37,283 bases of DNA, from positions 1 to 37,283 of IMG/VR virus record IMGVR_UViG_3300042473_000800. One strand, given 5' to 3'. Both the position numbers and the translations under genes were made by a program. Below, in pieces: positions 172 through 37,283 of this stretch. The notes under the pieces are model-generated. The model was not told where the DNA came from and made no database searches. It worked only from the letters and a program-made list of their open reading frames with translations. The stretch is from a virus. Position 1 is the first letter of the stretch. Each line of letters begins with the position of its first letter.

Positions 172-212
172 AATTAGAAATCCGGTGCTCTATCCTACTG
201 AGCTATGGGCGC
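172..212 (-). other. attP: Probable attP core: 5' half of a tRNA-Arg(UCU) gene
   Basis: Read on the minus strand from 212, the sequence starts GCGCCCATAGCTCAG and continues through a normal D arm to an anticodon loop containing TTTCTAA, which gives anticodon UCU. From memory this closely matches the first half of bacterial tRNA-Arg(UCU). Past the anticodon loop it cannot form the 3' side of the anticodon stem, and no T arm or acceptor strand follows, so it is a half tRNA. Its place directly beside the integrase gene marks it as the attachment core. Most tRNA-targeting phages carry the 3' half, so the 5' half is unusual. Confidence 0.75.
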
Positions 213-222
213 TGGGGTCACT

Positions 223-244
223 TTGCCTATGCCCGTTGACTATG
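223..244 (+). repeat. Right pair of arm-type-like repeats
   Basis: TTGCCTATG at 223-231 and TTGACTATG at 236-244 repeat the 13-bp spacing and orientation of the pair at 47-68. They lie 11 bp to the right of the tRNA-like core. Because they would fall inside the integrase gene if translation began at 205, they favour the later integrase start at 295. Confidence 0.55.
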
Positions 245-9635: not shown

Positions 9636-10057
9636 AGACCATCATTGGAATTGACCCCGGCAAAGGCGGGGGGATCGCGTGGATCTACGACGGCCGGCCA
9701 TGCGTCGAGAAGATGCCTGACACGCTGAAGGACTTGTTTGATCTACTGCTAGACATCGCCAGCAACAGCGATTGCTCGGCCTATCTGGAGCAGGTCGCCA
9801 GCAGCCCGCAGATGGGCGTTAAGTCCGCCTTCACGTTCGGGAACGGTTTCGGCCACCTCGAAATGGCGCTGACCGCTTGCTCGATCCCGTTCCAGCGCAT
9901 CAGGCCGCAGGCATGGCAAAAGGAGTTAGGATGCATGAGCAAGGGAGATAAGAACGTCACAAAGCGCCGGGCGCAGGAGCTTTTCCCGGAGCTAACAATC
10001 ACGCACGCAACAGCCGATGCGTTGCTTATCGCGGAGTATGGCCGTCGTCAAAGCTAA
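9632..10057 (+). CDS. RuvC-like Holliday junction resolvase
   Basis: A 141-residue RNase H-fold nuclease. IGIDPGKGGGIAW carries Asp8, YLEQV carries Glu53, and HATADALLIAEYG carries His125 and Asp129, in the order and spacing of the RuvC family. Phage RuvC-like enzymes resolve four-way junctions from replication and recombination before packaging. It sits between the recombination genes and the methyltransferase. The start is the ATG overlapping the previous stop. Confidence 0.8.
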   Translation: MKTIIGIDPGKGGGIAWIYDGRPCVEKMPDTLKDLFDLLLDIASNSDCSAYLEQVASSPQMGVKSAFTFGNGFGHLEMALTACSIPFQRIRPQAWQKELGCMSKGDKNVTKRRAQELFPELTITHATADALLIAEYGRRQS

Positions 10058-10091
10058 CCACCGAACAACGAACACTTTCCGAACACAACAG

Positions 10092-11273
10092 ATGAAATTT
10101 AAAATTGCAGACCTATTTTGCGGTGCCGGCGGCACCTCCGAGGGCGCCATGGAAGCAGCCGAGTTTTACGGACGTAAGCCCGAGCTAACAGCCATCAATC
10201 ATTGGCCGGTGGCCATCAATACCCACGAAACCAATCACCCGGCGGCTCGCTCGCTGTGCACCGGCGTGGATGCTGTGAACCCTCGCGACCTTTTCGGGGA
10301 GGGAGAGTTAGACATGCTCTGGGCATCACCCGAATGCACTCACCACTCGGTGGCCCGTGGGGGCAAGCCGATCAATGACCAGAGCCGTGCAACAGCTTGG
10401 TGTGTTGTCCGCTGGGCAGAAGCTCTGCGGCCGCCGGTGATCCTTGTCGAGAACGTCCCGGAGTTTCAGACCTGGGGGCCGATAGGGAGCAACAACCAGC
10501 CGCTGAAGAGCAAGAAGGGCGAGACGTTCCAAGCGTGGCTGGCGGCTCTGCGCTCGCTTGGCTACAAGACCGACTATCGACTACTGTGCGCTGCCGACTA
10601 CGGCGACCCGACGACGCGCACCCGACTGTTCGTGCAGGCTGTGCGCGGCCGGCGGAAGATCGTTTGGCCTGAGCCAACACACTCCGAGCTTCCAGATATC
10701 ATGGTTCGGAGGCGATGGAGCACGATTGAATCCGGGGTCATTGATTGGTCAATCGAAGCTCCGCTTTTGACTGAGCGCAAGCGGATGCTGGCACCTCGCA
10801 CGATTAACCGCATCAATGAGGGTTTTGCCAAATACGGTGCGCCATTCCTGATCGCCATGGAGCACGGAGGTCGGGTTATCCCAGCAACCTCACCAATGCC
10901 TACCGTGACGACGGCCAAGGGCGGCGCATTTGCGCTGGTCGTCGAGTATTACGGAAACGGTCGGGCCATCCCAGTGTCTCGACCACTTCCTACTGTAACC
11001 TGCAAAGATCGCTTTGGCTTGGTCACCATCAATTCTGGCCTGGTGGGGTTCCGCATGCTCAAGCCGCATGAGTATGCAAGCGCCCAAGGATTTCCCCGCG
11101 GATATCAGTTCACTGGCACCAAGACCGAGCAGGTGAAGCAGATCGGCAATGCCGTTCCCCGGCGCCTCGCTCGGGCGATTGTCGCTGCATCCATCTCCCA
11201 AAATGCCGATGTCTCAGCCCTTGTGACGGCCGAGGAGGCTAGCGACCGCAATTTCATGCTGGCCGCCGGCTAA
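10092..11273 (+). CDS. C5-cytosine DNA methyltransferase
   Basis: A 393-residue SAM-dependent enzyme. Motif I is ADLFCGAGG (6-14), motif IV is SPEC with the catalytic Cys82, motif VI is VENV (119-122), motif VIII is DYGDPTTRTRLF, and the C-terminal motifs IX-X appear as RMLKPHEYASAQGFP and QIGNAVPRRLA. The loop SPECTHHSVARGG differs from the usual PPCQ form, as in a mobile-element subgroup. No cognate restriction gene is present, so it probably protects phage DNA. The start at 10092 follows CCGAACACAACAG, an A/C-rich leader; the frame is open from 10017, but that would overlap the resolvase. Confidence 0.9.
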   Translation: MKFKIADLFCGAGGTSEGAMEAAEFYGRKPELTAINHWPVAINTHETNHPAARSLCTGVDAVNPRDLFGEGELDMLWASPECTHHSVARGGKPINDQSRATAWCVVRWAEALRPPVILVENVPEFQTWGPIGSNNQPLKSKKGETFQAWLAALRSLGYKTDYRLLCAADYGDPTTRTRLFVQAVRGRRKIVWPEPTHSELPDIMVRRRWSTIESGVIDWSIEAPLLTERKRMLAPRTINRINEGFAKYGAPFLIAMEHGGRVIPATSPMPTVTTAKGGAFALVVEYYGNGRAIPVSRPLPTVTCKDRFGLVTINSGLVGFRMLKPHEYASAQGFPRGYQFTGTKTEQVKQIGNAVPRRLARAIVAASISQNADVSALVTAEEASDRNFMLAAG

Positions 11274-14774: not shown

Positions 14775-14882
14775 TTATGCGCCCCATAAGGAATCTCTTG
14801 CGTTAGTTATCACCTCGGGGGTGCTTCCCCTCTTCGTCATTATCTACGACCTTTGTATTTTTCTACCAATTTGATTCGCCAC
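14775..14882 (+). other. Intergenic gap before the methyltransferase and late genes
   Basis: This 108-bp gap is one of the few in the plus-strand run and is less GC-rich than its surroundings. It contains CACC-TCGGG-GGTG (14811-14823), which can pair, and an overlapping GGGG/CCCC alternative (14818-14830). A TTG at 14853 keeps the next frame open. It is a sensible place for a late promoter, but I see no convincing promoter hexamers. Confidence 0.3.
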
Positions 14883-16157
14883 ATGAAAAATAAACCATCA
14901 GCCACGCCAATGGGCATCGAGGAGGTTGCGACCACCACACTTATCCCGTATGCCAGAAACAGCAGGACGCATAGCGATGAGCAGGTCGCCCAGATCGCCG
15001 CTTCGATTCGAGAGTTCGGATTTACCAACCCCGTCCTAATTGGGGCGGATAACGACATCATCGCAGGTCATGGGCGATTGATGGCGGCTAGAAAACTCGG
15101 GCTTGAGGTCGTCCCGTGTATTCGCCTAGGGCATCTCACTGAATCCCAAAAGCGTGCCTACATCATAGCCGACAACAAGCTGGCACTGAACAGCGGGTGG
15201 GATGAGGAACTCCTTAAGGTTGAGCTTGCGAGCCTTCGGGACGAGGATGGGTTCGACCTCGGGCTGACGGGTTTCAGTGCGGACGAGATTGCGGCCCTGC
15301 TCGCCGAGGTGACGCTGGAAGGCAACACCGATCCAGACGAGGTGCCGGAACCACCGGTCAACCCCGTGTCGGTCATGGGGGATGTTTGGATCATGGGCAA
15401 GCACCGGATCGCGTGCGGGGATTGCACGGATATGGGGACTGTGGAGAAAGCGCTCAACGGAGTGCAGCCGCACCTGATGGTGACCGATCCGCCGTATGGG
15501 GTCGAGTATGATCCCGCATGGCGGAACGAAGCAAAAAGAGCAGGAGGGAAAGCATTTGGCGCATTCGCTGTTGGCAAAGTAGAGAATGATGGCAAAGCCG
15601 ACTGGCGCGACGCGTGGTCTCTATTTTCAGGTGACGTTGCTTACGTGTGGCACGCTGGTGTTTTTGCTGGAGTGGTCGCAGACAGCCTTTCGGCTTGCGA
15701 ATTCGAAATGCGCTCGCAGATTATTTGGGCAAAGGACAGCCATGCGATTAGTCGCGGGCACTACCATTGGCAGCACGAGCCATGTTGGTATGCGGTGAGG
15801 AAAGGGAAAACTGGACACTGGGTCGGAGACAGATCGCAGATGACGCTCTGGAAGATACCGAAGCCGCAAAAATCCGAAACCGGCCACTCCACACAGAAGC
15901 CCGTCGAGTGCATGAAGCGCCCCATCGAGAACAACAGCTCGCCGGGGCAAGCGGTCTATGAACCGTTCAGCGGAAGCGGCACGACGATCATCGCTGGCGA
16001 AATGACCGGCCGCTGCATCCACGCGGTCGAGCTAAATCCCGCCTACGTCGATGTCGCGGTCAAACGCTGGCAGGACTTCACCGGTAAGCAGGCCGTCCAC
16101 TCCGAGCACGGAAAGACCTTTAGTGAAATGAAGGCCGAACGTGACGCTAACAAATGA
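14883..16157 (+). CDS. ParB domain fused to a beta-class DNA methyltransferase
   Basis: A 424-residue fusion. Residues about 10-110 are a ParB domain (IIAGHGRLMAARKLGL at 59-74). From about 160 follows an amino-methyltransferase with the catalytic DPPY (202-205) ahead of the SAM-binding FSGSGTT near residue 370, the order of the beta class. It should methylate adenine N6 or cytosine N4. This ParB-methyltransferase architecture is well known in phages and mobile elements. The ATG at 14883 is preferred to the upstream TTG. It overlaps the small terminase start and is the second methyltransferase in the genome. Confidence 0.9.
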   Translation: MKNKPSATPMGIEEVATTTLIPYARNSRTHSDEQVAQIAASIREFGFTNPVLIGADNDIIAGHGRLMAARKLGLEVVPCIRLGHLTESQKRAYIIADNKLALNSGWDEELLKVELASLRDEDGFDLGLTGFSADEIAALLAEVTLEGNTDPDEVPEPPVNPVSVMGDVWIMGKHRIACGDCTDMGTVEKALNGVQPHLMVTDPPYGVEYDPAWRNEAKRAGGKAFGAFAVGKVENDGKADWRDAWSLFSGDVAYVWHAGVFAGVVADSLSACEFEMRSQIIWAKDSHAISRGHYHWQHEPCWYAVRKGKTGHWVGDRSQMTLWKIPKPQKSETGHSTQKPVECMKRPIENNSSPGQAVYEPFSGSGTTIIAGEMTGRCIHAVELNPAYVDVAVKRWQDFTGKQAVHSEHGKTFSEMKAERDANK

Positions 16158-37100: not shown

Positions 37101-37133
37101 CATTTGATCGGGGTTGAAGCGGCGGCATCAATT

Positions 37134-37161
37134 GGAGCACCGGATTCATGTCAGGTGCTCC
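37134..37161. repeat. Inverted repeat across the repeat boundary
   Basis: GGAGCACC (37134-37141) and GGTGCTCC (37154-37161) are a perfect 8-bp inverted repeat with a 12-nt spacer. It spans the left edge of the terminal repeat (37157), so it is interrupted at coordinate 1 in the linear drawing but intact on the circle. Confidence 0.5.
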
Positions 37162-37283
37162 AACATCAGCCCGGAATCGATTAGCCACCGGACGAAACCC
37201 CGTTGCCTATGCCCATTGCCTATGCTGGATGCGTGGTGGGGCGCGCAAAAATGCACTTTCCTTGATTCTGCGGGCTTTTTGTT
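37157..37283. repeat. Terminal direct repeat, right copy
   Basis: Exact copy of bases 1-127; see the left copy. The circle junction falls here, in the non-coding region between the leftward operon and the attachment site. Confidence 0.95.

Follow-up and report, generated by a model that had tools for sequence, protein, structure and literature searches.

The window, that is, the whole stretch of 37,283 nucleotides analysed here, begins and ends with a direct repeat of 127 bp, positions 1-127 being identical to 37157-37283. This terminal repeat shows that the phage genome in the window is circular and complete, at 37,156 bp without the repeat, and the region around the tRNA half described below is therefore an uninterrupted attP. 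A tyrosine integrase gene (int) lies at the left end of the genome, and the other genes include a GpA-type terminase, a lambda-family portal, a ClpP-like head protease, a major head protein and methyltransferases. The megablast search with the first 20 kb of the window found no close relative among GenBank phages, and ARAGORN and Rfam found no complete tRNA encoded by the phage. For a temperate phage of 37 kb, it carries both a C5-cytosine methyltransferase (10017-11273) and a fusion of ParB with an N6/N4 methyltransferase (14853-16157), and the segment 8453-9144 is partly duplicated, with repeats of 27-34 nt that are 88-100% alike and 440-506 bp apart. The features at the integrase end are as follows.

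1-127, no strand: terminal direct repeat, with an identical copy at 37157-37283
47-69, minus: tandem arm-type repeats GCATAGGCAA (47-56 and 60-69), the distal arm of attP; exact copies flank the core, with equivalents in relatives
173-212, minus: attP core, bases 1-40 of tRNA-Arg(UCU), 5' end at 212; 38/40 identity to hosts, joined halves give a tRNA, and displaced halves in relatives end at bases 38-41
223-246, minus: integrase-side arm read from the sequence, with the arm-type repeat GCATAGGCAA (223-232) and a degenerate neighbour TCATAGTCAA (about 237-246)
229-1425, plus: tyrosine integrase (Pfam PF00589, 1.7e-15; phrog_1, 3.1e-48)
239-267, minus: a further, weak candidate promoter TTGTGC-N17-CATAGT, 26 nt before the first base of the tRNA (z 0.67)
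348-377, minus: putative antisense promoter TTGCCG-N18-TAAATC, directed at the tRNA half from about 136 nt upstream; weak alone (score 6.3, synonymous z 0.6), with a family-wide signal at the same position

The minus strand from 212 reads GCGCCCATAGCTCAGTAGGATAGAGCACCGGATTTCTAAT followed by T, which gives the 5' strand of the acceptor stem, the D arm, the anticodon stem and the UCU loop, after which the match to a tRNA ends. By itself this half gave no match in ARAGORN or Rfam, and its exact pattern was without a match in IMG/VR. The 40-mer of the core was searched in 260 genomes from the family of Luteolibacter marinus (Akkermansiaceae), where intact tRNA-Arg(UCU) genes matched it with two mismatches in genomes G179 and G192 and three in G189; the reversed control pattern had no matches in the same 260 genomes. 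When the phage half was joined in silico to each of the three host 3' halves, ARAGORN accepted a full tRNA every time. The first-pass annotation had read 172-212 as the 5' half of tRNA-Arg(UCU) on the minus strand and expected the joined halves to form a full tRNA, and the host identity and the ARAGORN calls bear it out on both points; the stretch shared with hosts is one base shorter than it had given, 173-212, since the phage has T at position 172 where the hosts have C. The host-genome search that it proposed returned the tRNA genes, but not an integrated copy of the window phage. The crossover is predicted in the anticodon loop, at about 173-182. Sublocations of tDNA such as the anticodon were reportedly defined by Williams in 2002.

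The exact 10-mer GCATAGGCAA occurs in the whole genome solely at 47-56, 60-69 and 223-232 (minus strand), the matches at 37203 and 37216 being the same sites in the terminal repeat. In relatives the arms are laid out alike but the repeats differ in sequence, being TTTTGCCTACCTCCG in locus L003 and TGACCAC in L008, for example. The int reading frame starts close to the core, at ATG 229 or, by homology with relatives, at ATG 295 (MGDWAKVGENL...), and the catalytic R, H-R, H and Y columns are invariant in the integrase alignment. Judging from the arm-like repeats on both sides and the integrase alongside, the tRNA half is the core of a tyrosine-integrase attP. Both the earlier designation as attP and the remark that the core sits directly beside the integrase gene hold, and integrated relatives show the same layout. 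On the circle, about 180 nt from the core, there is also a hairpin with an 8-bp stem at 37131-37157 (plus strand; GGAGCACCGGATTCATGTCAGGTGCTCC), whose left part repeats 12 nt of the core (GAGCACCGGATT) in the opposite orientation.

An alternative is that the tRNA half is a fossil acquired by chance, with the real crossover at some other place, which would agree with the two positions at which the half differs from its nearest hosts and with the lack of an integrated copy of this phage in the genomes searched. We regard it as very improbable: arm repeats flank the half on both sides, the same half is present in four related free phages, and the position relative to int is the same in 86 integrated relatives. 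In those four further free phages of the clade (L003, L289, L290 and L292) the 5' half of tRNA-Arg(UCU) likewise stands beside int.

The integrase family was sampled by an alignment-based scan of GTDB genomes, which gave at least 80 loci, nearly all from Verrucomicrobiota, and by a family-level search of Akkermansiaceae that added more; roughly 245 further members of the family were matched beyond the loci analysed. Four family integrases (L047, L071, L076 and L084) were found in metagenome-assembled genomes labelled KSB1, Anaerolineae, Sumerlaeota and Acidobacteria, which may reflect cross-phylum transfer or mis-binned contigs. A complete tRNA stands near the start of int in 100 relatives; its 5' end faces int in 86 of them and its 3' end in 14. 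The tRNAs used by the 5'-types are Arg, Met(CAT), Ser, Thr, Leu, Lys and Pro, and one strain, Luteolibacter marinus NBU1238, carries two islands of the 5'-type. The claim that the phage carries the 5' rather than the 3' half is thus matched by the polarity of its integrated relatives. The premise behind that claim, that phages nearly always carry the 3' part, holds as a general statement (Islander counts 3760 islands with 3' fragments and 159 with 5' fragments, 159/3919 or about 4%; PMC4383910) but fails in this integrase family. Five of these genomes were inspected for further integrases close to tRNAs, and most of those are of the 3' kind (L240, L246, L250, L254 and L256), L253 being of the 5' kind.

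The order of crossover, tRNA half and int is common to both polarities; L004, L005, L006 and L008 have a 3' half that is read toward int, and the window and L003 have a 5' half that is read away from it. On the integrase tree the polarity label needs 8 changes as compared to 17.8 in shuffles, at least four changes are forced by well-supported branches, and L020 (3') and L021 (5') are sisters with full support. Going by these loci, the 5'-half polarity, rare elsewhere, is the rule in this integrase family, and polarity has flipped at least four times within it. Eight 3'-type islands (L028, L029, L106, L107, L111, L112, L115 and L123) have a terminator-like hairpin and a T run directly past the 3' end of the tRNA on the int side, a possible counterpart of the promoter that 5'-types need.

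What integration does to the host gene can be seen in the relatives. In eight 5'-type islands the first 38-41 bases of the tRNA beside int recur as a displaced copy at the far end, in the same orientation, at distances of 20 kb (L129), 6 kb (L116), 14 kb (L041), 33 kb (L078), 42 kb (L061), 40 kb (L082), 8 kb (L033) and 8 kb (L022); a second copy at L063 was left out since it is a complete tRNA. The displaced copies are homologous from tRNA base 1 as far as the anticodon loop, and the DNA upstream is unrelated, with the exception of a possible leader likeness of about 16 nt in genomes G298 and G009. Three 3'-type islands have displaced 3' halves instead. The L078 island of strain LR76 lies in tRNA-Arg(UCU) and carries primase and ABC-transporter genes; genome G302, from the genus of LR76, has an uninterrupted tRNA-Arg(UCU) gene in which the ends of this island are absent. 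The upstream flank in G302 matches the flank of the displaced half over 346 bp at 91% identity, and the downstream flank matches that of the rebuilt gene over 213 bp at 69% and then over 1.15 kb at 87%. G302 is not a pristine empty site: the later island is missing from it, but an older element, now decayed, is the source of both its 5' half and its promoter region. Displaced halves with homology from base 1, together with the matching uninterrupted gene in a relative, mean that the host promoter has been replaced. The prediction had been that integration replaces the host 5' half together with the host promoter, so that transcription has to come from the phage, and for the integrated relatives both statements hold. 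The proposed comparison of attL and attR was likewise possible in relatives, by means of the displaced halves and the G302 site, but not for the window phage, of which no integrated copy was found in the GTDB and Akkermansiaceae-level searches (best int match among those listed, 55%). We infer from these relatives that the window phage would integrate in the same way. We also considered whether the displaced promoter of the host tRNA drives prophage genes that read inward, and rejected this, as genes at the displaced end mostly run the opposite way in 7 islands.

Integration might also be thought to break the host tRNA while a phage tRNA substitutes for it, as in tRNA-dependent lysogeny, and the overlap of attP with a tRNA gene and the tyrosine recombinase would suit that. 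This is hardly credible here, as the phage encodes no tRNA, the common core is 40 nt rather than about 10, and the joined halves rebuild the gene.

Where the rebuilt tRNA obtains its promoter was addressed by scoring sigma-70-like promoters against dinucleotide shuffles. Within 50 nt of the tRNA, enrichment was clear for the host tRNAs of G302 (z 1.71±0.27) and for 3'-type islands (2.25±0.38), and there was none for the rebuilt tRNAs of 5'-types (0.14±0.17; 86 loci scored like the host controls). A stretch of about 100 nt next to the rebuilt tRNA showed no clear enrichment either, with an E. coli sigma-70 model (z 0.30±0.14) or a host-trained one (0.12±0.13); the model trained on 28 host tRNAs has the -35 consensus TTGCCG. 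In 5'-types the promoter score peaks at -150 to -200 (1.59±0.15), antisense inside the start of int, with the int promoter on the other strand at +50 to +100. The element has the form TTGCC-N16-18-TATAAT-like and lies over the YY…GK codons. The antisense of the protein motif YYxRxxxxGK can resemble TTGCC…ATARTA by necessity, so each int gene was recoded with its own synonymous codons as a control. In this test the element reached z 0.90±0.08 in 5'-types (n=85) and -0.26±0.18 in 3'-types (n=16), and over the whole int gene on both strands the single clear excess was at the element position, in 5'-types only. The raw element score is raised in 3'-types as well, so part of the element follows from the YY and GK codons themselves. 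In counts that are not independent of kinship, the Gly codon giving TTGCC is GGC in 73/88 5'-types as compared to 4/18 3'-types (Fisher p 1e-6), and the strict two-box pattern is present in 35/88 and 0/18, respectively. A kinship-corrected pair test of polarity against promoter left 4 independent contrasts, of which about 2 agree, 0 oppose and the rest are neutral; with only 4 contrasts the link carries no significance. In the clade of the window the effect is weaker (0.50±0.15 in 10 5'-types and -0.13±0.27 in 5 3'-types).

We put at about an even chance that the most likely promoter of the rebuilt tRNA is this sigma-70-type element, antisense in the first int codons and about 130-200 nt upstream. 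The main competitor keeps the same 5'-polarity integration but has the tRNA transcribed by read-through or from an arm or leader promoter just upstream, in the window TTGTGC-N17-CATAGT at 267-239, with the codon bias of int caused otherwise. An AT-rich leader (TTG..AATCAAC-like) precedes many 5'-type tRNAs, the window does have its weak candidate 26 nt upstream of the tRNA, and few independent contrasts back the int element, so this reading is a serious one, though somewhat short of an even chance. It is weakened by the missing enrichment within 50 nt in the 86 loci, where identically scored host controls are clearly enriched, and by the restriction of the synonymous signal to one int position and to 5'-types.

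Remains of decayed islands bear on the antisense int promoter. In G302 a relic of a family integrase, its N-terminal 80 residues with the C-terminus missing, lies upstream of the tRNA-Arg(UCU) gene, and TTGCCG-N16-CATAGT inside this relic starts 193 nt before the tRNA. G009 has this relic too, with a stop codon in the promoter spacer but identical hexamers. Further N-terminal relics lie beside tRNAs at L261, L269, L277 and L282, the C-terminus being undetected despite enough downstream sequence, and three of these four have a promoter-like match. These relics fit a domesticated promoter; they were sampled with an N-terminal query and so are silent on which end of int survives. Remains of successive 5'-type elements are also stacked at one tRNA-Arg(UCU) locus (G302:C2:3532246 and 3546599; G009:C1:244381; G298:C66; L258-L260 and L192-L194), and the two integrase N-terminal relics of G302 are 93% alike and 14 kb apart.

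Taken as a whole, the phage very probably recombines its attP core with the host tRNA-Arg(UCU) gene in 5'-fragment polarity, and the rebuilt tRNA would be transcribed from the phage side, with the int-antisense promoter as the leading candidate. In this scheme the integrase would recombine the core with the anticodon loop of the host gene, leaving the phage on the 5' side of a rebuilt tRNA whose first 40 or so bases are phage-derived and whose remainder belongs to the host, and the host's own 5' half and promoter would move to the far end of the prophage. The leading candidate for the start of transcription from the phage side is the sigma-70-type antisense element in the first int codons, and with such a promoter inside int the integrase gene would double as promoter DNA for a host tRNA gene. 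A wider reading, to which we give slightly less than an even chance, is that int is dual-coding throughout this large Verrucomicrobiota integrase family: its N-terminal YY...GK codons would carry an antisense host-type promoter that drives the rebuilt tRNA, and the host, then dependent on that piece of int, would retain it next to the tRNA, domesticated as a promoter, once the island has decayed.

The preference of integrating elements for the 3' halves of tRNA genes is usually ascribed to keeping the host promoter. A family in which use of the 5' half is habitual and polarity has switched several times allows this explanation to be tested: a substitute promoter is then expected, and int was found to hold a candidate for one. 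If true, a mobile gene would have evolved a second function on its opposite strand, and there would be a mechanism that makes decayed islands hard to delete. Genetic tools are few in Verrucomicrobiota, and these attP sites and integrases may be offered for Luteolibacter and other Akkermansiaceae.

In the open-access literature we found no report of an integrase family with habitual use of the 5' half, nor of an antisense element in int. Islands with 5' fragments are already known as a minority (PMC4383910), as is the archaeal pTN3 case (PMC8371274, PMC5495485). The 5' tDNA fragment islands of Islander, as described there (PMC4383910), resemble the present ones in the tDNA fragment in attP, the crossover in the anticodon loop, the rebuilt tRNA and the displaced 5' half that marks the far end. 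They differ in that they make up 159 of 3919 islands there, whereas about 86% of this Verrucomicrobiota integrase family has the 5' polarity, with repeated flips; the Islander passages on these islands do not address the source of a new promoter, for which a candidate is proposed here. The integrases of pTN3 and TKV4 also use the 5' half of a tRNA gene (41 bp are shared there) and cut the rebuilt tRNA off from its promoter, but their core lies inside int, which is disrupted on integration, and the tRNA is said to use the integrase promoter (PMC8371274, PMC5495485). That layout is not present here: the core at 173-212 is outside the conserved int frame (start at 295), with the crossover separated from int by the tRNA half. 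The integrase gene remains intact and is oriented divergently from the tRNA, and the candidate promoter is located inside it on the antisense strand. Mycobacteriophages with tRNA-dependent lysogeny similarly depend on a working host tRNA, but they carry their own and do not rebuild that of the host, whereas the window phage would rebuild it and carries none (PMC10865867). In promoter switching of ICEKp1, too, the transcription of a tRNA and of int is joined across the attachment junction (PMC13023037); it is the mirror image of the present case, as the host tRNA promoter drives int there, and here the DNA of int would drive the tRNA.
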